Assembly: GCF_000155955.1 (NCBI RefSeq)
Contig: NZ_GG697142.2
Coordinates: 427,006-485,224, forward strand
Source of the DNA: Mitsuokella multacida DSM 20544
GTDB lineage: Bacteria; Bacillota; Negativicutes; Selenomonadales; Selenomonadaceae
Direction: 5' to 3'
Length of the DNA: 58,219 bases
Shown here one piece after another: positions 1-39,481 of the stretch. The position numbers and the translations under genes are program-made. Position 1 is the first letter of the stretch, and the number at the start of each line of letters is the position of its first letter. The notes under the pieces were generated by a model. The model saw only the letters and a list, made by a program, of their open reading frames with translations, was not told the DNA's origin and did not search any database.

Positions 1-1302
1 GGCATCGCGGGCACGTGTGTCGGCGGCGGCGCGACCGTTGGTACGGCACAGCTTGCGGCGATGGCCGGCCTCTCGGCCTGGTGGTTCACCATCGGCTCGG
101 GCGTCGGCCTCATCATCATGGGCCTTTTCTACGCCAAGCCGCTGCGCCGCACGGCCCTTGAGACGATCCCGCAGTTTCTCGCGCAGAACTTCGGCCTGAC
201 CTGTGGCGTCTTCTCGAGCATCGTCTCGTCCATCGGCATCCTGTTCAGCGCCGTGGCGAGCTGTCTGCCGGCCATCTACATCATCGCTGCAATCTTCGGC
301 ATCTCCTTCCTGCCCGCGACAATCCTGCTCGTGCTGGCCGTCGCGGCCTACGCCTTCTTCGGCGGCATGAAGAGCGCCGGCGTCGGCGGCATCCTCAAGA
401 TGATCGTCATCTGGATCACGATGGCCATCGCCGGCACCATGGCGGCGCATTCGCTGTTTGCAGACCCCGCCATCTCCGCGGCTCTGCCAGCTGGCGCCTT
501 CAACCTGCTGCACGGCGACATGAGCCATATCCTCGCGAACTTCTCGTCCGTCGTCATCGGCATGCTCTGCACGCAGTCGTACATCCAGGCCATCTTCTCC
601 GCGTCGAACCCGCGCACGGCGTCCGTCGCGGCCTTTACGGCGGCGCTCATCAGTCTGCCGGTCGGTCTGCCGTGCGCGATGGTCGGCATCTACATGGGCG
701 CGGCCCATCCAGAAGTTACGCCAATCCTCTCGCTGCCGACCTACCTATTGACGGAGCAGCCTTCCCTGCTCGGCGGCATCGCGATGGGCGGCATCATGCT
801 CTCACTCATTGGCTCGATTGCCGGCCTCTCGCTCGGCATCGGCACGATGCTCTCGCGCGACATCTTTCATCGCGCGCGCGTGACGCTGCGCGCCCGCAAG
901 ATCCACAAGATCGCCGAAGACCCCGAGAGCCAGGAGATCGACATCACGGAGATTCCGACGGTCAACCATCCGTACCATCTCTCTGAGCTCTCCGTCACGC
1001 GCCTGATTGTCCTGCTGACGATCGCGCTCGCCGCCTTTATCGCGATGGTCAACGAGGGCAGCCAGGTCCTGTTCTGGAACTACCTGTCCATGGCCCTTCG
1101 AAGCGGCGGCATCTTCCTGCCGCTGAGCTTCGCCATCTTCGCGCCGGGCACCATCACCAATCTGAGCGCCACGCTCTCGATGGTGCTCTCGACCGCCGCG
1201 GCCCTCCTTGCCGTCTTCCTCGGCGCCGCCGGCAACCCGCTGTTCTTCGGCCTCGCCATCAGCGCCCTCTGTCTCGTCCCGTGCTGGCTGCGCCATCGCT
1301 GA
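1..1302 (+). CDS. Sodium:solute symporter (SSS family), 5'-truncated
   Basis: The reading frame is open from the first base, so the start lies outside the window; 433 residues are visible. The protein is a run of hydrophobic helices. Near the visible N-terminus is a glycine-rich stretch followed by VGTAQLA and then GLSAWWF, typical of SSS/SSF sodium:solute symporters, which move an organic solute inward with Na+. A polar loop at about residues 296-325 (RARKIHKIAEDPESQEIDIT) interrupts the helices, followed by further membrane segments to the C-terminus. The substrate cannot be told from the sequence. No neighbour helps: the next gene downstream is a lactate dehydrogenase fusion behind its own promoter. 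The family call is good, the solute unknown. Confidence 0.85.
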   Translation, partial: GIAGTCVGGGATVGTAQLAAMAGLSAWWFTIGSGVGLIIMGLFYAKPLRRTALETIPQFLAQNFGLTCGVFSSIVSSIGILFSAVASCLPAIYIIAAIFGISFLPATILLVLAVAAYAFFGGMKSAGVGGILKMIVIWITMAIAGTMAAHSLFADPAISAALPAGAFNLLHGDMSHILANFSSVVIGMLCTQSYIQAIFSASNPRTASVAAFTAALISLPVGLPCAMVGIYMGAAHPEVTPILSLPTYLLTEQPSLLGGIAMGGIMLSLIGSIAGLSLGIGTMLSRDIFHRARVTLRARKIHKIAEDPESQEIDITEIPTVNHPYHLSELSVTRLIVLLTIALAAFIAMVNEGSQVLFWNYLSMALRSGGIFLPLSFAIFAPGTITNLSATLSMVLSTAAALLAVFLGAAGNPLFFGLAISALCLVPCWLRHR

Positions 1303-1386
1303 GATGCGCTCTCGACACAGGGGAGAAGTTCACGCGGGCATTCGCCATCTCGCTGTTCTTCGGGTAACAGCCTTTCGAAAAAGTGC

Positions 1387-1414
1387 AGTGAGACTGCAAA
1401 AGTGAGACTGCAAA
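1387..1414 (+). repeat. Perfect 2 x 14-bp tandem repeat upstream of the ldh promoter
   Basis: The 14-mer AGTGAGACTGCAAA occurs twice head to tail (1387-1400 and 1401-1414). It ends 7 bp before the predicted -35 element of the HPr-LDH gene. Its position suits an activator-binding direct repeat, but a chance duplication is possible. Confidence 0.6.
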
Positions 1415-1421
1415 TATGTTA

Positions 1422-1450
1422 TTGATTTCACACGCTCGGCGTCGTATAAT
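1422..1450 (+). promoter_or_regulatory. Predicted promoter of the HPr-LDH gene
   Basis: TTGATT at 1422-1427 and TATAAT at 1445-1450 are separated by 17 bp. The same TTGATT-17-TATAAT layout is found before malate dehydrogenase. Confidence 0.7.
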
Positions 1451-1509
1451 CTTATTGGTGATATACACGAACCACATTTTTATGGTTTTTAATTGGGAGG
1501 ATCTTATCA

Positions 1510-2808
1510 ATGAAAAAATTCCAAGTCGTCGTGAAGTGCTCACTCGGTATCCATGCGCGTCCCGCAGCGCAGATCGCGCAGGCATGCAGCAACCTGCGGG
1601 CAGCGGTAACGCTCGAGGCCGACAATGAGACTGCCCAGGGCAACAACGTGCTGGAGATCCTGAATCTCCATGTCGCGAAGGGCGCAACGGTCAATGTTAC
1701 GGTGGACGGCCCCGACGAGGAAGAGGCTGCAAAGCAGATCCAGGCAGTCTTTGAGGCGATGGGTCCGAAGGATAAGAAGATCCCTGTACTCAAGGTTGCC
1801 TTCTTCGGCACGAAAGACTATGACCGCCTCTATTTCAGCGAGCTCGCGAAGGATCGTGGCGAGGGTACGTACAACGTTGAGCTCAAATATTTCGCGAGCC
1901 GCTTGACGGATGAGACGGCACATCTCGCCAACGGCTATGACGCCGTCTGCATCTTCGTCAACGACGAGGCACCGCGCTCTGTCATCGAGCAGCTGCACGA
2001 TGGCGGCGTCCGCCTGATTCTCCTGCGCTGCGCCGGCTTCAACAATGTCGACAAGAAGGCCGCTGCCGAGTACGGCATCACGGTCCTGCGCGTACCGGCT
2101 TACTCCCCGTACGCGGTGGCAGAGCATGCGATGGCGACGCTGCAGGCCGCGAACCGCCGCCTGCACAAGGCGTACAACAAGGTGCGCGACAACAACTTCG
2201 ACCTCACGGGTCTGCTCGGCGTCGATCTCCACAACAAGGTCGCTGGCATTCTCGGCACGGGCCGCATCGGCCAGTGCATGGCGCGCATCTGCAAGGGCTA
2301 TGGCATGACGGTCATCGGCTGGGATGCGTTCCCGAACAAGAAGCTCGAAGAGGAGGGCCTGCTCACCTATGCCTCGAAGGAGGAAGTCCTGAGCCGCTCC
2401 GACCTCATCTCCATTCACGCACCGCTCATCATGGGCGAAGGCGGCACGTATCATCTCATCGATGAGAAGGCCATCTCTCTCATGAAGGACGATGTCATGC
2501 TCACGAACGCTGCACGCGGCGGCCTCATCGATACGGAAGCGCTCATCGCTGCTCTCAAGAAGGGCAAGTTCCATGCGGTCGCGCTCGATGTCTACGAGGG
2601 CGAGGACGCCAATGTCTACACGGATCACAGCTCCGACGTTCCGACGGAAGACATCACGGGCCGCCTGCTCATGTTCCCGCAGGTCATCCTCACGAGCCAT
2701 CAGGCATTCTTCACGCGCGAGGCCCTGCAGGCCATCGCAACGGTGACGATGGAGAACGCCCGCAATTTCAACGAGGGCTGCCCGCTCGGCGCTGCTGAAG
2801 TAAAATAA
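1510..2808 (+). CDS. HPr phosphocarrier domain fused to D-lactate dehydrogenase
   Basis: A 432-residue two-domain protein. Residues 1-88 are a full HPr domain: the phospho-accepting His15 sits in the motif SLGIHARPA, and the LNLHVAKGA segment is HPr-like. The position of the regulatory Ser46 is Asn46. A short linker (about 85-93) leads to a D-isomer-specific 2-hydroxyacid dehydrogenase of D-LDH type (94-432) that opens with KVAFFGTKDYDR. It has the NAD-binding GTGRIG at 249-254 with Asp272 beyond the next strand, and catalytic Arg336, Glu363 and His397 (SHQAFF). Known for the families: HPr relays phosphate from enzyme I to PTS EII proteins, and D-LDH reduces pyruvate to D-lactate with NADH. 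Inference: the HPr domain lets PTS state act on the lactate branch, or the protein is bifunctional. The start has GGGAGG upstream. No enzyme I or EII gene lies in the window. Confidence 0.93.
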   Translation: MKKFQVVVKCSLGIHARPAAQIAQACSNLRAAVTLEADNETAQGNNVLEILNLHVAKGATVNVTVDGPDEEEAAKQIQAVFEAMGPKDKKIPVLKVAFFGTKDYDRLYFSELAKDRGEGTYNVELKYFASRLTDETAHLANGYDAVCIFVNDEAPRSVIEQLHDGGVRLILLRCAGFNNVDKKAAAEYGITVLRVPAYSPYAVAEHAMATLQAANRRLHKAYNKVRDNNFDLTGLLGVDLHNKVAGILGTGRIGQCMARICKGYGMTVIGWDAFPNKKLEEEGLLTYASKEEVLSRSDLISIHAPLIMGEGGTYHLIDEKAISLMKDDVMLTNAARGGLIDTEALIAALKKGKFHAVALDVYEGEDANVYTDHSSDVPTEDITGRLLMFPQVILTSHQAFFTREALQAIATVTMENARNFNEGCPLGAAEVK

Positions 2809-2824
2809 GCATAAGTTCAACTGG

Positions 2825-2860
2825 TCCTGTCTGCATGAATGCAGGCAGGATTTTTCTTTT
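2825..2860 (+). terminator. Rho-independent terminator after HPr-LDH
   Basis: TCCTGTCTGCAT pairs with ATGCAGGCAGGA across a 2-nt loop (one G-U), followed by a T-rich tract. A second hairpin follows at about 2913-2935. Confidence 0.85.
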
Positions 2861-2986
2861 TGCCGTGGAATTAGATTATTAGATTAAAAGAATACGAAAG
2901 AGTTCAAGAGCCCCTGCTGTCTCTCACAGCGGGGTCTCGTGCTACATGATACAATGCGTGATAGGACCAGGATGGGGGGGAGTGGT

Positions 2987-4408
2987 ATGGATAAAGATTG
3001 GACGCCGGACATCTACGGCGATGTCCCGGTGGCGTATGCTGTCTATAAGCTGCTCTTTGCGAAGGACGGCAGGACGGTCCGGGACACGGAGTACGTCTTT
3101 GTCAACGAGATCTACTGCGAGATGGCGGGGGTGAAAAAGGAAGATCTTTTGGGGAAGTCTTTCTTCTCTGTCTATGCGAATGGAGATCCGATCTGGATGA
3201 CGTACTGCACGAAGGCCTACCAGGAGGGGAAGGCCTTTCATGACTGCATCTATGCGCCGGAGATCGGGCACTGGCTCGACTTCACGATCATGCCGCTCAA
3301 GATCCCGGGCTATGTCGCCTATACGTTCACGAATGTCGACCTCGACCGTGCGCAGCAGCTCAAGATGAAGCGCGAGTACACGACGAATGATGTGATCCTG
3401 CGCATCTCGAAGATTCTCAACGGCGAGGACGACTATGAGACGGCGATGAACCACGCACTGCGGGAGCTCAGCCGCGTGCTGCGTCCCGACCGGCTCTACA
3501 TCCTCGAGACGGACCGCAAGACCGTCTCGAACACCTTTGAGTGGTGCGCGGCCGGTGTCAAGTCGGAGCTGGCGACGCTGCAGCAGCTCGACTATGCGAA
3601 GTACATCGGCGGCTGGGAGAGATTCCTCGAGACGGCGTCGAGTGTCGTCATCGATGACATCGAGGTCCTCAAGGATGACGACCCCGTCGACTACGAGAAC
3701 CTCAGGCGGCAGGGCGTCGAGCGCCTCATCGCGACGCCCATCTACCACGGTGGCAGGCTCATCGGCTATCTCTGTGCCGACAATTACGAGTGGGACAGCC
3801 GCGTCAACACGGTCGCCGTCTTCGAGACGGTGTCGTACTTCATCGCGGCCAAGCTCGCGAACCACCGCCTCTTGGAAGAGCTCGACCATCTGAGCCGCTA
3901 CGATACGCTGACGGGCCTGCGGAACCGCAATGCGTTCAACCTGGCGGTCGACACGCTGATGCAGCGGCGCGGCGCTGTGGGCGTCGTCTACGCCGATGTC
4001 AACGGCCTCAAGGAGATCAACGACAAGTACGGCCATCGGGCTGGCGATGAGGCCCTAAAGCGCACGGCCGACCTGCTCGCGGACTGCTGCGGCCGCGAGC
4101 ATGCCTACCGCGTCGGTGGCGACGAGTTCCTCGTCCTGATGCCGCAGGTCGCTAGGCATGAGTTCGAGGCGCGCTTCGCGCAGCTGCGCGCGCGTGTCGC
4201 GGACGACGTCTCGCTGGCCATCGGGGCCGACTGGCTCGCCGATGCGGCCGAGCTCGACGAGGCCATCTCCAAGACGGACCGCCGCATGTACCGCGACAAG
4301 GTCGCGCACTACGAGCAGGTCGGCAAGAAAGAGCTGCCGCGCCATGAATTCTATCTGACGGTGAAAAAAAGTTTACAAGATAAGGTGAATGATGTTAAGA
4401 TAGAATAA
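2987..4408 (+). CDS. PAS-GAF-GGDEF diguanylate cyclase (copy 1)
   Basis: 473 residues from ATG 2987, chosen because the paralogue downstream starts at the matching residue and a G-rich site precedes it; earlier in-frame ATGs exist at 2939 and 2972. A PAS-like domain (about 10-120; VNEIYCEMAGV) is followed by a GAF-like domain (about 145-300) and a C-terminal GGDEF domain (about 305-455). The metal-binding Asp337 (YADVNGLKEIND) and the intact GGDEF at 377-381 predict active synthesis of cyclic di-GMP from two GTP. No RxxD inhibitory site stands at its usual place before GGDEF, so product feedback of the classical kind is unlikely. No transmembrane segment is seen, so it is probably a cytosolic sensor. 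The ligand is unknown. It is a tandem paralogue of the next gene. Confidence 0.88.
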   Translation: MDKDWTPDIYGDVPVAYAVYKLLFAKDGRTVRDTEYVFVNEIYCEMAGVKKEDLLGKSFFSVYANGDPIWMTYCTKAYQEGKAFHDCIYAPEIGHWLDFTIMPLKIPGYVAYTFTNVDLDRAQQLKMKREYTTNDVILRISKILNGEDDYETAMNHALRELSRVLRPDRLYILETDRKTVSNTFEWCAAGVKSELATLQQLDYAKYIGGWERFLETASSVVIDDIEVLKDDDPVDYENLRRQGVERLIATPIYHGGRLIGYLCADNYEWDSRVNTVAVFETVSYFIAAKLANHRLLEELDHLSRYDTLTGLRNRNAFNLAVDTLMQRRGAVGVVYADVNGLKEINDKYGHRAGDEALKRTADLLADCCGREHAYRVGGDEFLVLMPQVARHEFEARFAQLRARVADDVSLAIGADWLADAAELDEAISKTDRRMYRDKVAHYEQVGKKELPRHEFYLTVKKSLQDKVNDVKIE

Positions 4409-4475
4409 GAAAATAAAAGCGGATTGTTTTGTTCGGATTGCAGAGCATGACGTGATTTTAGGCAAGGTGATCACG

Positions 4476-5894
4476 ATGGAGAATCTTTGGATGCCGGACA
4501 TCTATCACGACGTCCCGGTGGCGTATGCAGTCTTTGACTTGATCTTTGCGGAGGATGGCAAGACCGTTCAGGACACGAAGTACGTCTTTGTCAACAAGAT
4601 TTACTGTGAGATGGTGGGGAAGACGGAGGAGGAGCTCGTGGGGAACTCCTTCCGGTCCATCTACGAGAAGGTGAACCCCATCTGGATGACGTACTGCGCG
4701 AGAGCCTGTCACGAGGGCAAGGCCATCCGCGACTGCATCTACGCGCCGGAGATCGACCATTGGCTGGATTTCACGATCATGCCGCTCGCGCAGCCGGGCT
4801 ATGTCGCCTACACGTTCATGAATGTCGACCTTGACCGCGCACGGCAGATGGAGATGAAGCGCGAGTACACGACGAACGACATCATCCTGCGCATCTCGAA
4901 GATCCTCAGCGGCGAGGAAGAGTATGACGTGGCGATGAACCACGCGCTGCGGGAGCTCAGCCGCGTGCTGCATCCGGACCGGCTCTACATCCTCGAGACG
5001 GATGGTAAGACGGTCTCGAATACGTTCGAGTGGTGCGCGCCGGGCGTCACGCCGGAGATTGACACGCTGCAGAATCTCGACTACGCGCAGTACATCGGCG
5101 GCTGGGAGAAGTTCCTCGAGCATTCGACGAGCGTCATCATCGAGGACATCGAGATCCTGAAGGACGATGATCCCGTCGACTACTGGAACCTCAAGCGGCA
5201 GGGCATCGAGCGCATCATCGATGCGCCGTTCTATCACGACGGCAAGCTCATCGGCTACCTCGGCGTCGACAACTACGAGAAGAGTGAACTGGTCAATACG
5301 GTCACAGTGCTCGAGACGGTGTCGTACTTCATTGCCTCGAAGATCACGAACCACCAACTGATGGTCGAACTCGAGCATGCGAGCCGCTATGATGCCTTGA
5401 CAGGGCTGCACAACCGCAATGCCTGCATCGAGAAGATCGACTTCCTCATGCAGCACTCGAGCTCGATCGGCATCGTCTACGCCGATGTCAACGGCCTCAA
5501 GGAGATCAACGACACGCGCGGCCATCAGGCGGGTGATGAAGCGCTCAAGCGGGCGGCCCACCTGCTCGCGAAGTGCTACGGCAGTGAGAATGCCTACCGC
5601 ATGGGCGGTGACGAATTCCTCGTGCTGATGCCGCTCGTCAAAGAGCTCGACTTCAAGGCGAGCTTCCGCCGCCTGCGCGAGATGGTCGGCCGCGAGCAGG
5701 AACTGTCCATCGCCCTCGGCAGCGACTGGGTGGCAGACACCACGCACCTGAACGAAGCCATCTGCCGCACCGATCGGCGCATGTACGGCGACAAGGTCGA
5801 GTACTACAACCGCCGCGGCAAGCAGTACGAGAACCGCCACGACATCCGCAGCTGCCGCCGCATCCTTGACACGACCCTTCCCCTCGAAGACTGA
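4476..5894 (+). CDS. PAS-GAF-GGDEF diguanylate cyclase (copy 2)
   Basis: 472 residues from ATG 4476, behind AAGGTGA; a GTG at 4452 is an alternative start. Domain order and length match copy 1: PAS-like (about 10-120), GAF-like (about 145-300) and GGDEF, with the GGDEF motif again at 377-381. Long blocks are identical or near-identical between the two copies (for example MKREYTTND and RLYILETD), while the PAS and GAF ligand regions and the C-terminal tail have diverged. The I-site RxxD is also absent here. Only 67 bp separate the copies, so they may be co-transcribed. Inference: a gene duplication gave two cyclases reading different signals. Confidence 0.88.
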   Translation: MENLWMPDIYHDVPVAYAVFDLIFAEDGKTVQDTKYVFVNKIYCEMVGKTEEELVGNSFRSIYEKVNPIWMTYCARACHEGKAIRDCIYAPEIDHWLDFTIMPLAQPGYVAYTFMNVDLDRARQMEMKREYTTNDIILRISKILSGEEEYDVAMNHALRELSRVLHPDRLYILETDGKTVSNTFEWCAPGVTPEIDTLQNLDYAQYIGGWEKFLEHSTSVIIEDIEILKDDDPVDYWNLKRQGIERIIDAPFYHDGKLIGYLGVDNYEKSELVNTVTVLETVSYFIASKITNHQLMVELEHASRYDALTGLHNRNACIEKIDFLMQHSSSIGIVYADVNGLKEINDTRGHQAGDEALKRAAHLLAKCYGSENAYRMGGDEFLVLMPLVKELDFKASFRRLREMVGREQELSIALGSDWVADTTHLNEAICRTDRRMYGDKVEYYNRRGKQYENRHDIRSCRRILDTTLPLED

Positions 5895-5927
5895 CGCGGC
5901 ACGGTCGGACTCCTGCGCGGCTTTGCG

Positions 5928-5956
5928 TTGCATTTTGGCGCGCGTTGTGATAAGAT
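5928..5956 (+). promoter_or_regulatory. Predicted promoter of the T-box-valS unit
   Basis: TTGCAT at 5928-5933 and TAAGAT at 5951-5956 with 17-bp spacing. The T-box leader begins just downstream. Confidence 0.5.
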
Positions 5957-5962
5957 GGTTCC

Positions 5963-6221
5963 GTATAAGGCAAAGACGATGACGAAGAGGAGTAGGGATC
6001 TTCCCTGGCAAAGAGACGGGACGGCTGGTGCGAGTCCTGGCAGGGAGATGCGGAAGGTCGCTTCGTAGTCGCTCCGCTGAGGCTCGTGCTTAGGCGGGGA
6101 CGTGGGCGGCGTTAACGCGAGAGTCATGCGGCAGTGCTGCATGAGAAGATTGGTGGTACCACGAAGGCAGGCGCTTTCGTCCTTTTGGACGGAGGCGCTT
6201 TATTTTTTGAGGAGGATTACA
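5963..6221 (+). ncRNA. T-box leader (tRNA-Val sensing) of valS
   Basis: The stretch between the second GGDEF gene and valS holds the ordered landmarks of a T-box riboswitch. There is a GGAGTAGGG motif near 5989, an apical GGCTGGTGCGAGTCC segment near 6022-6036, a GAAGGTCGCTTC segment whose GTC at 6057-6059 suits a valine specifier, and the conserved TGGTGGTACCACG at 6151-6163, which pairs with the uncharged tRNA acceptor end. A terminator follows (GCGCTTTCGTCC/GGACGGAGGCGC, about 6169-6207) with a T-run just before the valS ribosome site. Known mechanism: uncharged tRNA-Val stabilises the antiterminator and lets valS be transcribed. The exact specifier was read by eye. Confidence 0.9.
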
Positions 6222-8900
6222 ATGCCAGAGAAAGAAGAGCTCGGGAACAACATCCCGAAGGTTTATGACCCGCAGTCGTTTGAGAAGAAGTGGTATGAGT
6301 TCTGGGAGAAGAATAAGTTCTTCCACGCGGAGGTCGACAAGAGCAAGAAGCCGTACAGCATGGTCATCCCGCCGCCAAACGTCACGGGCCAGCTGCACAT
6401 GGGCCACGCGCTCGACAACACGCTGCAGGACATCCTGATCCGCTACCACCGCATGCAGGGCTACAACACGGTCTGGATCCCGGGCTGCGACCACGCCGGC
6501 ATCGCGACGCAGGCGAAGGTCGAGGGCGCGCTGCGCAAAGAGGGCACGAACCGCTATGAGCTCGGCCGCGAGAAGTTCCTCGAGCGCGTCTGGGACTGGA
6601 AGGAGAAGTTCGGCAGCCGCATCATGTTCCAGCTGCGTTCGCTTGGCTCCTCGCTCGACTGGGACCGCGAGCGCTTCACGATGGACGAGGGCTGCAGCCG
6701 CGCCGTCCGCGAAGTCTTTGTGAGCCTCTACGAGAAGGGGCTCATCTATCAGGGCACGCGCATCACGAACTGGTGCCCGTCGTGCAACACGGCCATCTCG
6801 GACATCGAGGTCGAGCACGAGACGGAGCAGGGCCATCTCTGGCATCTGCGCTATGAAGTCGAGGGCGAGCCGGGCAAGTACGTCGAGATCGCGACGACGC
6901 GCCCAGAGACGATGTTCGGCGATACGGGTGTCGCCGTCCATCCGGATGACGAGCGCTACAAGGACCTCGTCGGCAAGACGCTGATCCTGCCAATCGTCGG
7001 CCGCCGCATCCCGCTGTTCGCCGACGAGTACGTCGACAAGAACTTCGGCACGGGCGCCGTCAAGGTCACGCCGGCCCACGACCCGAACGACTTCGAGATG
7101 GGCCAGCGCCATCACCTCGAGGAGATCAAGGTCATCGGCAACACGGGCAAGATGCTCGAGGGTGCCGGCAAGTATGCGGGCATGGACCGCTATGAGTGCC
7201 GCAAGGCGCTCGTCAAGGAGCTCGAGGAGACGGGCGTGCTCGTCTCGGTCGAGGAGCATGAGCACTCCGTCGGCCACTGCTCGCGCTGCCATTCGACGAT
7301 CGAGCCGCTCGTCTCGAAGCAGTGGTTCGTCAAGATGGAGGGCCTCGCAAAGCCGGCCATCGAGGCCGTCAAGGACGGGCGCATCCAGTTCGTGCCGGAG
7401 CGCTTCACGAAGACCTACATCAACTGGCTCGAGAACATCCGCGACTGGTGCATCTCGCGCCAGCTCTGGTGGGGCCACCGCATCCCGGCCTGGTACTGCG
7501 ACGACTGCGGCGCGACGAGCGTCTCGCGCACGGACCTCACGAAGTGCCCGCACTGCGGAAGCCACCACATCCATCAGGATGAGGACGTGCTCGACACGTG
7601 GTTCAGCTCGGGCCTCTGGCCGTTCGAGACGTTCGGCTGGCCGGACAAGACGCCGGAGCTCGAGCAGTTCTACCCGACGGCGACGCTCGTCACGGGCTAC
7701 GACATCATCTTCTTCTGGGTCGCGCGCATGGTCATGATGGGCCTCGAGTTCGGCAAGGATATCCCGTTCCACCATGTCTTCATCCACGGCCTCGTGCGCG
7801 ACAGCCAGGGCCGCAAGATGAGCAAGTCGCTCGGCAACGGCATCGACCCGGTCGAGGTCATCGAGAAGTACGGTGCTGACACGCTGCGCTTCATGCTGAT
7901 CACGGGCAACACGCCAGGCAACGACATGCGCTTCTACTGGGAGCGCGTCGAGAGTGCGCGCAACTTCGCCAACAAGATCTGGAATGCCTCGCGCTACATG
8001 CTCATGAACTTCGAGGGCTTCGACAAGAGCTTCAAGCCGGAGGCCGCGGACTTCACGCTTGCCGACAAGTGGATCCTCTCGCGCTACGCCAAGACGGCGG
8101 AGGGCGTGACGAAGAGCCTCGACAACTTCGAGCTCGGCGAGGCTGGCCGCATGATCTACGAGTTCATCTGGAACGAGTTCTGCGACTGGTACATCGAGCT
8201 CACGAAGGCGCGCCTCTATGACAAGGAGAATGAGCGCGCGAAGAACACGGCGCTCTACGTCCTCTCGTACGTCCTCGAGCACACGCTGCGCCTGCTGCAT
8301 CCGTTCATGCCGTTCCTCACGGAGGAAATCTGGCAGAAGGTGCCGCATGACGCGCAGTGGAAGAGCATCATGATCGCCGACTGGCCGACGGCCGACGAGG
8401 CACTGCGCGACGACGCTGCCGAGGCGCAGATGACGGCCATCATGGAGACGATCAAGACGGTCCGCAACCTGCGCGCCGAGGTCGGTGCGGCTCCGGGCCA
8501 CAAGAGCGAGGTCATGCTGCACTTCACGGAGAGCAGCCTGCGCCCGGTCTTCGCGGAGAACGAGGGCTACCTCAAGGCACTAGCCGCAGCTGAGCCGGTC
8601 ACGCTGCTCGCAGACGATGCCGAGAAGCCGGAGAACGCCATGGCCGGCGTCGTCGGCGGCGTCGAGATCTACCTGCCGCTCAAGGGCCTCATCGACGTGG
8701 AGAGGGAGACGGCCCGCCTGCAGAAGGAGCTCGACAAGCTCGAGAAGGAGATTAAGCGCCTCACGGGCAAGCTCAGCAACGAGGGCTTCCTCAAGAAAGC
8801 GCCGGAGGCTGTCGTCGCCAAGGAGCGCGAGAAGCTCGCTGGCTATGAGGAGAAGAAGCAGGCGGTCGAGGGCCGTATCCAGGACCTCGCCAAGCTTTGA
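6222..8900 (+). CDS. valS: Valyl-tRNA synthetase
   Basis: 892 residues, the usual bacterial ValRS length. The start at ATG 6222 lies behind GAGGAGG; the frame is open further upstream, but that part is the T-box. Class I signatures are present: HMGH at 59-62 inside [13 protein letters not shown], and KMSKS at 532-536. A CP1 editing domain lies between them, followed by an anticodon-binding domain and a C-terminal coiled coil (about 820-892; [16 protein letters not shown]). The enzyme charges tRNA-Val and edits mischarged threonine. It is controlled by the T-box leader and followed after 17 bp by folC, as is common in Firmicutes. Confidence 0.98.
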
Positions 8901-8917
8901 GAATGGAGCGACGCGCT

Positions 8918-10222
8918 ATGAATTATCAGGAAGCCATTTCCTATCTGGAAGGGCTCAAGATCTTTGGCATCCGCCTGGGCCTCACGCGCATCGAGCGGCT
9001 CTTGGAGCTTTTGGATATGCCGCAGGACCGCTACCGCACGATCCACGTGACGGGCACGAATGGCAAGGGCTCGGTCTCGGCGATGGTCGAGGGCGTCCTG
9101 CGCCGCAGCGGCATCCATACGGGCTTCTACAGTTCGCCGCATCTCGTCTCGTACACCGAGCGCATCCGTGTCGATGGGCAGAACATCAGCGAGCAGGACT
9201 TCGCCGAGGGCATGACCGTCATCCGCGCGAAAATCGATATGATGCTCGCGGAGGGGGCGGAGTGCCCGACGCAGTTCGAGGTGCTCACGGCACTGGGCTT
9301 CTACTACTTCGCGAAATGTCAGGTCGAGTACGCCGTCATCGAGGTCGGCCTCGGCGGCACGCTCGACTCGACGAATGTCATCACGCCGGAGGTCTCGGTC
9401 ATCACGAATGTCACGATGGAGCACGCCGACAAGCTCGGCGGCACGCTCCAGAGCATCGCGGAGAACAAGGCCGGCATCATCAAGGAGGGCGTGCCCGTCG
9501 TGACGGCCGCTAAGGGAGAGCCGCTTGAGGTCATCCGCGCGGTGGCTGAGGAGAAGAACGCCGACATCTTCGTGGCCGGCGAGGATTTCTGCTCGCAGTT
9601 CCTCTCGTGTGATGGACGGACGCAGAAGCTCGAGTTCACCTCGGAGCTTTTAGGCATCGACCATGAGCCGTACGAGCTGCACCTGCTCGGCGTCCATCAG
9701 GTGGAGAACAGCGCCGTCGCGCTGATGACGATACGCCTGCTCCACAACATCGATGACCGCATCACGATGAAGACGGTTACCGAGGCCCTGCGGCTCGTGA
9801 GCTGGCCCGCCCGCTTCGAGCGGCTCGAACTCGGGCAGCAGGCCATCGTCGTCGACGGCGCGCACAACCCCGCCGGCATGAAGGCCCTGCGCGAGAGTCT
9901 CGACGAGATTTTCCCGGCCGAGGAGCGCGTGCTGCTCTTGGGCATCCTCAAGGACAAGGACATCGACACGATGCTCGATATCCTCTTGCGCCCGAATGAC
10001 ACCGTTGTCGTGACGGTGCCGCAGTCGGAGCGCGCCGACTCGGCCGCAGATCTCTTGCGCCGCGTCGCGCCGGCTGTGCAGCACGTCGAGGCTTTTGAGA
10101 ACAACACAGAGGCGCTCAATCGCGCCCTGGAACTCGCCAACGGTGAGAAGCTGCTCGTCATCGCGGGCTCTTTATACCTCGTCGGCGGCGTGCGCCAGAT
10201 GCTGCTGAAGCGGGAGGGATGA
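8918..10222 (+). CDS. folC: Dihydrofolate synthase / folylpolyglutamate synthase
   Basis: 434 residues from ATG 8918 (GGAG about 9 bp before). ATP-binding loop VTGTNGKGS at 44-52, Mur-ligase-like central domain, GLGGTLDSTN and the C-terminal DGAHNPAG motif are all present. It adds glutamate to dihydropteroate and then to folates, in the cytosol. It directly follows valS and is probably co-transcribed under the same T-box. TTG 8897 or ATG 8903 would overlap or abut valS but lack a better ribosome site. Confidence 0.95.
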   Translation: MNYQEAISYLEGLKIFGIRLGLTRIERLLELLDMPQDRYRTIHVTGTNGKGSVSAMVEGVLRRSGIHTGFYSSPHLVSYTERIRVDGQNISEQDFAEGMTVIRAKIDMMLAEGAECPTQFEVLTALGFYYFAKCQVEYAVIEVGLGGTLDSTNVITPEVSVITNVTMEHADKLGGTLQSIAENKAGIIKEGVPVVTAAKGEPLEVIRAVAEEKNADIFVAGEDFCSQFLSCDGRTQKLEFTSELLGIDHEPYELHLLGVHQVENSAVALMTIRLLHNIDDRITMKTVTEALRLVSWPARFERLELGQQAIVVDGAHNPAGMKALRESLDEIFPAEERVLLLGILKDKDIDTMLDILLRPNDTVVVTVPQSERADSAADLLRRVAPAVQHVEAFENNTEALNRALELANGEKLLVIAGSLYLVGGVRQMLLKREG

Positions 10223-10226
10223 GTGC

Positions 10227-12242
10227 ATGAAGCGAAATAAGACAAGTGAGACGGGCACGCACATCCGCGAGAAGCGGCGTGCCCTCGCGCATGACCGCTG
10301 GAAGCGGCGCGCGACCGCGATTGCCTGGTATGGCCTCTTGGCCGAGGTGTTCTTCCTGCCACTCTCGCCGAGTGTGGCGACGGTCGCGCTGCTCATCGGC
10401 ATCGCGGGGACGGCCTTGCGGTTCTACGTGGACAAGGAATTCCACTTCCGCCACCTGCGCTTCGACGTGCCGGCGGTGCTCTTCGTGGCCGTCAGCGGCC
10501 TGTCGGTGCTGTCCTCGCCGGACCGCGGGTTCAGCTTTTACAACTATTACAACCTCGTCGGCGTCTACGTGCTGACGTATCTCCTGATTGGGCAGAACGT
10601 CCGGGAGCCCGGGCAGATGAAGTCCATCCTGCGCATGGCCTGCGCGGCGGCGGTCATCGTCCTGCTCTACGGCTACTACCAGTTCCTGTTCGGCATCGAC
10701 ATCAGCTCGATGAAGTGGGTCGACGGCGATGCCTTCCCGGAACTGCGCAAGCGCGTCTTCTCGACCTGGGAAAACCCGAACATCCTCGCAGGCTACCTCG
10801 ACATCATCATCTGCCTGGCCTTCGGCCTCTTCATGAAGTGCCGTGACCGCGAGCGCCGCATCCTCCTGGGTGCCTTCATGCTCGCGGCGGCGGCATGCCT
10901 CGCGATGACGTACGCGCGCGGGGCCTGCCTCGTCATCGCTGTCATCCTCGCGGGCTACGGCGTGCTCCGCGACCGCCGCGTGCTCGTCGCCTGCATCCTC
11001 GTCGTCGCCATCCTCTTCGTCCTCGACCCGATGCTCTACGAGCGCATCACCTCGGTCTTCACGAAGGTCGACACCTCGACGGAGATGCGCCTGGCCTTCT
11101 GGGAGAGCACGGTCGCGATGATCCAGGACCATCCGTTCCTCGGCATTGGCTGGGGCGCGTACTGGATGGTCTATCCCGAGTACGACTTCTACCTGCAGGG
11201 CGCCAACGTCCTGATCGTCCATGCCCACAACATCTACCTCAACTACATGGCAGAGATCGGTATTCCCGGTGCTGTCGCGTTCTTCTGGTTCTTCTTCGGC
11301 ACGATGATCATGGCCCTGCGCACGCACTTCCCTGCGGATACTGGAGCCGCCGAGCAGGCGACGCCGTTTGGCAAGTACCAGATGCCGTTCCGCTGGAACC
11401 GGCTCTGGCATGACTGGAAGGAACACGACATCCTCGCCGGCCTTAGCCTCGGCATCGGTCTCGCCGTGCTGTCCGTTGCGCTCAACGGCCTGACGGACGA
11501 CCTGCTCTTCAACATCCCGTCGTCGATGCTGCTCTGGATGCTCGCGGCGCTTGCCGGCGCGCTCTCCTGCATGTGTCCCGAGAAAGTGGACACAGCGGAA
11601 AACGAAACCAGCGGCAACGACTTCCTGAAGAAATTCCAAGTGACGGTCCGCAAAGGCGCCAAGGACGCAAAGGAAGCCGCAATGGATGCGAAGGATAAGG
11701 TGCAGGACAGAGTCCAGGACAAGGTCCACGGCATGCTCTACCGCGAGCTGCCGGCCGACGCCGATGCATCCGATAAGGATAAAGCGGAGGCATCTGCGGT
11801 CAAGCCTGCTCCGCGCAAAGAAGCGCCTTCAGGCGATAAGGCACCGGCAGCAGAGCAGCCGGAGACGCCGCGCGACCCGATGGACGAGCTGGCCGAAGAG
11901 GTCCGCAAGGCCCTCTTGCAGCGCAAGCAGGAAGAAGAAGCCGCGGCCAAGGCTGCAGAGGAAGCCGCAAAGCCGGCAGAAAAGGCAGCTGAGACTGCTG
12001 AACCGGTTGAAGCTACTGAAGCCGCGCCGGATGACAAGCCTCAGAAGCAGGAACCGGCAGAGCAGTCCGCAAAGCCGGCTGAGCCGCAGGAGGCAGAAGC
12101 AGAAGCGCCGGAAAGCGATACTGCTGCAAAAGACACAGACGAAGTAAACGAAGCAGCAGAAGAAAAAAATGCAGAGAAGAAAGCAGAGAAGGAGGCAGGC
12201 AGCCATGAAGAAACCAAACGCGATATCAAAGGCGACGATTGA
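10227..12242 (+). CDS. O-antigen ligase/Wzy-like membrane protein with long charged C-terminal tail
   Basis: 671 residues. Residues 1-450 form a polytopic membrane protein with an ENPNILAGYL segment and a large loop holding HPFLGIGWGAYW and HAHNIYLNYMAEIG, as in the O-antigen ligase/polymerase (Wzy/WaaL) superfamily, which transfers or polymerises undecaprenyl-linked glycans on the outer face of the inner membrane. From about 455 the protein changes: an amphipathic repeat region (AKDAKEAAMDAKDKVQD), then about 160 residues rich in Ala, Glu, Lys and Pro, predicted disordered. The tail is absent from ordinary family members. It lies 4 bp after folC, and its last 38 bp overlap rex. The glycan substrate is unknown. 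Confidence 0.8.
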   Translation: MKRNKTSETGTHIREKRRALAHDRWKRRATAIAWYGLLAEVFFLPLSPSVATVALLIGIAGTALRFYVDKEFHFRHLRFDVPAVLFVAVSGLSVLSSPDRGFSFYNYYNLVGVYVLTYLLIGQNVREPGQMKSILRMACAAAVIVLLYGYYQFLFGIDISSMKWVDGDAFPELRKRVFSTWENPNILAGYLDIIICLAFGLFMKCRDRERRILLGAFMLAAAACLAMTYARGACLVIAVILAGYGVLRDRRVLVACILVVAILFVLDPMLYERITSVFTKVDTSTEMRLAFWESTVAMIQDHPFLGIGWGAYWMVYPEYDFYLQGANVLIVHAHNIYLNYMAEIGIPGAVAFFWFFFGTMIMALRTHFPADTGAAEQATPFGKYQMPFRWNRLWHDWKEHDILAGLSLGIGLAVLSVALNGLTDDLLFNIPSSMLLWMLAALAGALSCMCPEKVDTAENETSGNDFLKKFQVTVRKGAKDAKEAAMDAKDKVQDRVQDKVHGMLYRELPADADASDKDKAEASAVKPAPRKEAPSGDKAPAAEQPETPRDPMDELAEEVRKALLQRKQEEEAAAKAAEEAAKPAEKAAETAEPVEATEAAPDDKPQKQEPAEQSAKPAEPQEAEAEAPESDTAAKDTDEVNEAAEEKNAEKKAEKEAGSHEETKRDIKGDD

Positions 12243-38512: not shown

Positions 38513-39481
38513 ATGAAGGTAACAGTTGTTGGTGCAGGTAATGTTGGTGCAACGGTTGCAAACGTTCTTGCCACGAAGAAGTTCTGCAGCGAGGTCGTCC
38601 TCGTCGATATCAAGGAAGGTGTTCCGCAGGGCAAGGCCATGGATATCATGCAGACGGCTCATATGCTGAACTTCGACACGACGGTAACGGGCGTTACGGC
38701 TCTGCCGAACGATCCGGAAGGCTATGCTCCGACGGCTGGTTCTGATGTTGTCGTTGTCACGTCCGGTATGCCGCGCAAACCGGGCATGAGCCGCGAGGAC
38801 CTCATCGGCGTCAACGCAAAGATTGTCAAGAGCGTTGTTGACCAGGCCCTCAAGTATTCCCCGAATGCTTACTTCATCATCATCTCCAACCCGATGGACG
38901 CTATGACGTTCCTGACGCTCAAAGACACGAAGCTCCCGCGCAACCGCATCCTCGGCCAGGGCGGCATGCTCGACAGCAGCCGTTTCCGTTATTTCCTCGC
39001 ACAGGCTCTGACGAAGGCTGGCTATCCGGCTACGCCGGCTGACGTTGATGGCATGGTCATCGGCGGCCATAGCGACAAGACGATGGTTCCGCTCGTCAGC
39101 TATGCAACGCTGCGCGGCATCCCTGTAACGCAGCTGCTGAGCAAGGAAGCTCTCGACGACGTCGTTGCCAACACGAAGGTCGGCGGCGCTACGCTGACGA
39201 AGCTCCTCGGCACGTCCGCTTGGATTGCACCGGGCGCTGCAGCTGCAACGATGGTTGAAGCCATCGCTCTCGATGCCAAGAAGCTCATCCCGTGCTGCGT
39301 CTACCTCGAAGGCGAGTATGGCGAGAAGGACCTCTGCATCGGCGTACCGTGCATCCTCGGCAAGAACGGCCTCGAGAAGATCGTCGAGATCAAGCTCGAT
39401 GGCGAGGAGAAAGCAAAGTTCGAGGAAAGCGTCCAGGCTGCTCGCAACACGAACGCAAAACTCGGCGATGCCCTCAAATAA
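38513..39481 (+). CDS. mdh: Malate dehydrogenase (LDH-like type)
   Basis: 322 residues from ATG 38513 with AAGGAGG upstream; the longer frame to 38429 lacks a ribosome site. NAD loop VGAGNVG at 6-12, the substrate-loop MPRKPGMSRED (Arg marks malate rather than lactate specificity), ISNPMDAMTF, and the catalytic His in GGHSDKTMVPL. It reduces oxaloacetate to malate in the succinate branch. Codons ending in T (GTT, GCT) are much more common than in neighbours, a usual sign of high expression. Confidence 0.95.
   Translation: MKVTVVGAGNVGATVANVLATKKFCSEVVLVDIKEGVPQGKAMDIMQTAHMLNFDTTVTGVTALPNDPEGYAPTAGSDVVVVTSGMPRKPGMSREDLIGVNAKIVKSVVDQALKYSPNAYFIIISNPMDAMTFLTLKDTKLPRNRILGQGGMLDSSRFRYFLAQALTKAGYPATPADVDGMVIGGHSDKTMVPLVSYATLRGIPVTQLLSKEALDDVVANTKVGGATLTKLLGTSAWIAPGAAAATMVEAIALDAKKLIPCCVYLEGEYGEKDLCIGVPCILGKNGLEKIVEIKLDGEEKAKFEESVQAARNTNAKLGDALK

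Follow-up and report, generated by a model that had tools for sequence, protein, structure and literature searches.

The stretch of DNA analysed here (58,219 nucleotides from Mitsuokella multacida DSM 20544, hereafter the window) contains a frame at 1510-2808 that joins HPr, the phosphocarrier of the PTS, to a D-lactate dehydrogenase (D-LDH), which raises the question of whether the fusion is genuine and what an HPr domain might do on a fermentation enzyme. A preliminary description of the window had reported a complete HPr domain and a complete D-LDH in one frame, and both were confirmed: the forward-strand frame encodes 432 aa with no inner stop, and its product exceeded the Pfam cut-offs for PTS-HPr (PF00381, residues 3-82; 76.2 bits against a cut-off of 23), 2-Hacid_dh (103.3 bits against 24.6) and 2-Hacid_dh_C (155.5 bits against 25.1). 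The HPr part also scored as a member of the PTS HPr family in the profile TIGR01003 (73.8 against a cut-off of 47.9), and its best match among solved HPrs in a sequence search was 3le1 (E = 2.4e-12). His15, Arg336, Glu363 and His397 all lie at the positions previously assigned to them, and the NAD loop is present in the LDH part as G249-T-G251-R-I-G254. The features of the locus are listed in Table 1.

Table 1. Positions of the HPr-D-LDH fusion gene, its parts and nearby signals in the window.
Feature	Position	Strand	Basis or remark
Rex-operator-like inverted repeat	1416..1433	+	3 mismatches to the consensus; overlaps TTGATT of the promoter-like site
Promoter-like site, TTGATT-17-TATAAT	1422..1450	+	1 found, mean of shuffles 0.9
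HPr-D-LDH fusion gene, 432 aa	1510..2808	+	Translation, Pfam, full-length relatives
HPr domain, residues 3-82	1516..1755	+	Pfam PF00381; sequence matches to solved HPrs
His15 codon, predicted phosphorylation site	1552..1554	+	His in 105/105 distinct fused proteins
Asn46 codon, position of the HPr-kinase serine	1645..1647	+	Alignment of 105 fused proteins
Linker, residues 83-93	1756..1788	+	Most variable stretch compared
D-lactate dehydrogenase, E. coli LdhA type, residues 94-426	1789..2787	+	phmmer, Foldseek
Arg336, catalytic	2515..2517	+	105/105 fused, 17/17 unfused
Glu363, catalytic	2596..2598	+	105/105 fused, 17/17 unfused
His397, catalytic	2698..2700	+	104/105 fused (gap in L009), 17/17 unfused
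Terminator-like hairpin	2823..2852	+	One of 4 found, mean of shuffles 1.0

A frameshift, a chimeric assembly or chance could also place two domains in one frame. A scan of genome contigs yielded 149 stretches encoding relatives, of which the best 80 were kept and read. Each of these 80 ran from HPr into LDH in a single frame (79 of them 430-435 aa long, L009 401 aa), by which assembly error and chance were ruled out. The same architecture occurs in many independent genomes, including those of the isolates Mitsuokella jalaludinii DSM 13811 and Sharpea azabuensis DSM 18934, and the probability that an artefact explains the fusion is therefore negligible. When domain architectures were compared in Pfam, both parts were detected in 52/52 aligned members; besides them only NAD_binding_2 matched, weakly and in 20 members. 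The complete fused set comprised 124 readings and 105 distinct proteins (the window, 80 from the contig scan, 9 from a Lachnospiraceae sample and 15 from an Erysipelotrichales sample); with 105 distinct fused proteins collected, the fusion is not a sequencing accident.

The LDH part was nearest by sequence to the D-LDHs of Fusobacterium nucleatum, E. coli and its relatives, and Pseudomonas aeruginosa. The best phmmer match was the F. nucleatum D-LDH 5z21 (E = 3.1e-91), and the E. coli LdhA type was closer (5z21, 309.6 bits) than the Lactobacillus type (1j49, 175.8 bits). As expected for the LdhA type, 2-Hacid_dh and 2-Hacid_dh_C domains occur together with the catalytic Arg, Glu and His. Among the best 25 of 29 NCBIfam models matched, the best of those named for D-LDH fell well short of their cut-offs (NF006374, for example, scored 172 against 356), and no LdhA model appeared. 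The best Foldseek matches of the predicted structural model were D-LDHs; because its overall confidence was moderate (pTM 0.73, mean pLDDT 84.7) and its whole fit to solved D-LDHs was loose (rmsd mostly about 5.5-9 Å and TM by target 0.60-0.71 in the 50 matches listed), the model is uninformative on domain packing. Judged from its sequence, the protein is most likely a fermentative NAD-dependent D-lactate dehydrogenase of the E. coli LdhA type, with pyruvate reduction to D-lactate as its predicted activity and a probable built-in PTS input domain.

In the 2.58-Mb M. multacida genome, the fusion is the sole LdhA-type gene, the next best match having 34% identity over residues 167-399. The window also encodes, at 38525-39439, a member of the Ldh_1 (lactate/malate dehydrogenase) family that scores below the cut-off for L-LDH. 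The genome carries three HPr domains, one in the fusion, one in a sigma-54 activator and one as a free HPr of 88 aa that has both His15 and Ser46 and is followed by an enzyme I frame, and no HPr kinase was found in it. The sigma-54 activator (L003 1486-3168 on contig C6) is a 560-aa protein in which HPr is joined to PAS, sigma-54 activator and helix-turn-helix parts, and its gene lies upstream of those for free HPr and enzyme I. Genomes G189, G190 and G191 also gave HPr matches, within frames of 565-569 aa.

The fusion had been expected to be spread in Negativicutes, which did not hold for the family tested: it was rare in Selenomonadaceae (9/189 genomes, a count in which the match of G171 spans residues 1-367 only and G041 has a second, partial match) and commoner in Erysipelotrichales, where 54 of 244 sampled genomes carried it, a further one had it split in two, and 11 gave only unfused matches. 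In the Lachnospiraceae sample, 13/397 genomes were fused and 161 further genomes had a match with E <= 1e-60, which among the matches listed started at residue 56 or later; in both of these samples, similarity to the window protein set the ranking of the matches. Lachnospiraceae and Erysipelotrichales make up the bulk of the 105 distinct fused proteins, the family labels being Lachnospiraceae for 46, Erysipelotrichaceae for 9, Coprobacillaceae for 4, Selenomonadaceae for 6 and Eubacteriaceae for 2, with 37 carrying no family label. Isolates among the kept loci were M. jalaludinii, Selenomonas montiformis, S. azabuensis, Sharpea porci, Faecalibacillus and Lactimicrobium.

For the LDH part, a tree was built from 57 fused proteins of <90% identity and 17 unfused LDHs, the 17 being drawn from the Lachnospiraceae sample only, as its best unfused loci. 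A single branch, supported at 100/100 and with a stem of 1.07 changes per column, separated all 57 fused rows from the unfused ones in a tree where several long branches were flagged, and among these rows no unfused copy was found inside the fused clade. The HPr-part tree, which rests on 84 columns only, split the fused rows from 16 free HPrs with support of 100/99. Since all fused representatives lie on one side of the LDH branch, a single fusion event with later spread is likely. Rows of the three groups surveyed are intermixed among the fused proteins, a pattern suggestive of horizontal spread; part of the mixing may come from misbinned metagenome contigs. A neighbouring pair of genes that could have preceded the fusion was sought and rejected, as the HPr motif was absent from the 17 loci (3-4 kb around unfused LDHs).

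The LDH part has itself changed in the fused clade. At 27 LDH positions, >=95% of fused proteins share a residue that occurs in <=20% of the 17 unfused ones; residue 94 counts among the 27 only because most unfused LDHs have their start Met there. Another is Y201 (Glu in 17/17 unfused). Further changes of the clade are D239 (Asn in 17/17), W271 and G364, and columns 116-119 and 281-282 are filled mainly in fused proteins. The clade-fixed positions suggest mutual adaptation of the LDH and HPr parts. This pattern would also suit a domain that takes no part in phosphotransfer, that is, a structural or stability module acquired as an old accretion and retained since the LDH had adapted to it, as would the long stem and the retention of the domain in one draft genome without a detected PTS (see below).

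Such a module does not, however, predict what was seen in the HPr domain, where G13, H15, A16, R17 and P18 were invariant in all 105 distinct fused proteins, among them the His15 with Arg17 and Pro18 by which the HPr family is recognised. At position 46, by contrast with the HPr-kinase-regulated HPr of Firmicutes, Ser occurred in a single fused protein, the others having Asn (93, including the window protein), Asp (9), Arg (1) or Glu (1). Gln24 and Cys26 were found in 103/105. Cys26 (1585-1587 in the window) is Ala in 15/16 free HPrs. The linker was the most variable of the stretches compared (mean entropy 2.6 bits), yet residues 80-98 had the same length in 98/105 proteins. A set of helix-face positions, which we take to be the enzyme I docking face, showed a mean entropy of 0.93 bits with residues 15-18 left out, against 1.60 bits for the remaining HPr domain, and 276 of 20,000 random sets were equally low. 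The lysines of free HPrs, K28 in 13/16 and K45 in 14/16, are mostly absent from the fused domain, the mean net charge of which is -2.7 against -0.6 for free HPr.

The free HPr-type proteins used in this comparison were 21 hand-picked best matches, from the M. multacida genome and 20 other fusion genomes. The standard motif was found in 16, which entered the column counts and the HPr tree; the other five lacked the sought motif and were read by eye. Ser46 was counted in 10 of the 16 without gaps, and in 11 when a one-residue insertion in L161 was allowed for, as ungapped counts misread this protein after about residue 30. Two of the five read by eye are other HPrs with His15 and Ser46, and three (L153, L159 and L164, all from fusion-bearing genomes) are Crh-like paralogues in which Glu replaces His15 and Ser46 is retained. 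His15 can thus be lost in fusion genomes, which tells against the structural module and, together with the invariant His15, Arg17 and Pro18, makes it an unlikely explanation. As the free set includes Crh-like proteins and the fused domain keeps His15 only, the His15 and Ser46 inputs can be divided between proteins.

Enzyme I takes phosphate from PEP, frees pyruvate and phosphorylates His15 of HPr, the phosphorylation state of which tracks the PEP:pyruvate ratio. Enzyme I above the cut-off was detected in 41 of the 42 fusion genomes tested, and a short free HPr-type protein besides the fusion in 29 of 30. HPr kinase was present in 24/31 fusion genomes, and in 24/24 of those the fused protein is without Ser46. 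One function compatible with these counts is docking: the HPr domain would bind enzyme I, allowing the LDH to use pyruvate at its source and to regenerate NAD where sugar enters, and the His15 phosphate need not alter LDH activity. The two activities of enzyme I, phosphorylation of HPr and release of pyruvate, its presence in 41/42 genomes and the conserved docking face are in line with such channelling; we nevertheless regard it as improbable, as the loss of K28 and K45 would tend to weaken docking, the free HPr-type protein of 29/30 genomes would compete, and enzyme I-HPr complexes are short-lived.

Genome G229 (locus L080, a 1.6-Mb draft) stands apart: searches of it gave no enzyme I above the cut-off, no HPr besides the fusion, and neither EIIC nor HPr kinase, and ribosomal protein S12 was detected. 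Its fused protein (L080 6001-7293) retains His15, with an HPr part among the most diverged of the fused set. Incompleteness or misbinning of the draft may account for this, or the HPr domain may work there without phosphate; a fusion without a detected PTS speaks against a universal need for the PTS. As the fused protein contains the only HPr domain found in G229, and G13, H15, A16, R17 and P18 are kept in 105/105, it might instead be a working phosphocarrier that serves EIIA domains or PRD regulators. The LDH would then be its carrier, or a sensor of NADH or pyruvate occupancy that gates this transfer, with the signal running from LDH to PTS. The failure to find an EIIC in G229, the free HPr-type protein in 29/30 genomes and the loss of the surface lysines in most fused proteins make this role quite unlikely. 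The latter two observations also weaken the earlier proposal that the LDH serves as a scaffold for HPr.

The reading that we prefer is that the HPr domain is a regulatory PTS input that modulates the LDH. Enzyme I would pass the phosphate of PEP to His15 of the fused domain, the phospho-state of which would mirror the PEP:pyruvate ratio and the flux of PTS sugars, and this state, relayed through the short linker within the oligomer, would alter LDH activity. It is most plausible that high sugar flux leads to a dephosphorylated domain and more pyruvate reduction, the direction being a guess. With Ser nearly always missing at position 46, HPr kinase would not be able to act on the fused domain, which would transmit the PEP signal only, and the HPr-kinase arm would be left to free HPr and Crh-like proteins. 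Consistent with this reading are the retention of the G13-P18 motif in 105/105 proteins although the remaining HPr domain varies, the enzyme I of 41/42 genomes with a conserved docking face and a linker of near-constant length, the absence of the fused Ser46 from all 24 HPr-kinase genomes, and the single fused clade with its long stem and fixed LDH positions. By analogy, LDHs of the LdhA subfamily are reported to be allosteric, showing cooperativity and, in two of three tested, enhancement by FBP and Mg2+ (PMC4230899), and E. coli HPr is reported to bind or act on PykF and PfkB (PMC8167557). Against it, the loss of K28 and K45 and the acidic domain might weaken enzyme I docking. On this evidence we consider the chances evenly divided that the HPr domain modulates the LDH as a PTS input, through phosphorylation and a resulting effect that are both predicted. 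More tentatively, and at somewhat less than an even chance, the protein would be an LDH with a covalent allosteric HPr that reads PEP:pyruvate through enzyme I and His15, with the HPr-kinase input removed, so that sugar influx sets D-lactate formation, and the LDH possibly feeds back into the PTS. The preliminary view of a PTS carrier joined to a lactate-forming enzyme is thus partly supported, in that it fits the 105/105 conservation of His15, Arg17 and Pro18, enzyme I in 41/42 genomes and a clade that is fused only; its further suggestion that His15 could switch the LDH fits the conservation, and the switching itself is put forward as a prediction.

Upstream of the fusion gene, GGGAGG occurs at 1495-1500. 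The promoter-like site is no better than chance, given its number relative to shuffled sequence (Table 1), and with the hairpin downstream the fusion gene may be a one-gene unit. The inverted repeat that overlaps the promoter-like site is a weak candidate for a Rex operator. Rex-like sites with <=2 mismatches were found in 9/81 upstream regions against 0.5 in shuffles, and those with <=3 mismatches in 31/81 against 8.1, the shuffles preserving base composition only and some of the 81 loci being near copies. Catabolite-responsive elements with <=1 mismatch occurred in 7/81 upstream regions against 1.3 in shuffles, with no signal in the 81 regions at 2 (21 against 17.3) or 3 mismatches (74 against 70.4). 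The fusion gene is preceded by a sodium:solute symporter-like frame cut by the window start, and followed by two similar GAF/GGDEF proteins in tandem with weak PAS matches (2939-4408 and 4452-5894). A conserved operon partner was considered and rejected, as neighbour clustering gave only groups of few loci: across the 81 loci no neighbour family was common to more than 11, the fusion and its antisense frame excepted, in a rough table for which a simple gene picker took the antisense frame over the fusion in 16/81 loci.

If the preferred reading is true, the fusion would link sugar import to a fermentation product directly and post-translationally in bacteria of the gut and rumen, where sugar import may directly steer lactic-acid production, and it is a ready-made natural chimera for studying the control of an enzyme by HPr phosphorylation. 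S. azabuensis DSM 18934 has no strong LdhA-type match besides the fusion, which scores 682 bits against 94 bits for the runner-up. For another S. azabuensis strain, a D-LDH gene is reported to be highly expressed in low-methane sheep, with PTS genes among the most highly expressed of that strain; the 12-fold rise of the D-LDH gene is similar to that of all reads mapped to the genome, from 937 to 11372 RPM, and the expression section of the paper leaves unspecified whether this gene is the fusion or another (PMC5069950).

Searches of open-licence papers gave no description of an HPr-LDH fusion, and domain databases probably already list the architecture. Compared with the E. coli LdhA-type D-LDHs of E. 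coli, F. nucleatum and P. aeruginosa, the LDH part is 42-45% identical (5z1z, 5z21, 5z20) and has the catalytic Arg, Glu and His in common with them, and the fusion adds an N-terminal HPr domain. Fusions of HPr to further PTS domains are well documented, in multiphosphoryl transfer proteins of the FruB/FPr type and in HPr-EI fusions (PMC2405797). These proteins likewise hold HPr inside a larger polypeptide (PMC2405797), but they join it to PTS domains, and the fusion, from which EI and EIIA domains are absent, joins it to a fermentation enzyme. Regulation of central metabolic enzymes by HPr is also known in trans, from E. coli, where HPr acts on PykF, PfkB, NagB and Adk (PMC8167557); those contacts are between separate proteins, whereas contact in the fusion would be permanent. 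Free HPr (ptsH) belongs to the same family by sequence and has His15-Ala16-Arg17-Pro18 in common with the fused domain, which differs in its covalent attachment to the enzyme, the replacement of Ser46, the loss of K28 and K45 in most proteins, and Gln24 and Cys26. Crh and Crh-like proteins resemble the fused domain as HPr-type proteins from which one of two phosphorylation inputs is gone, but the loss is the opposite one: they drop His15 and keep Ser46, and the fused domain, which is thus not a Crh, keeps His15 without Ser46.
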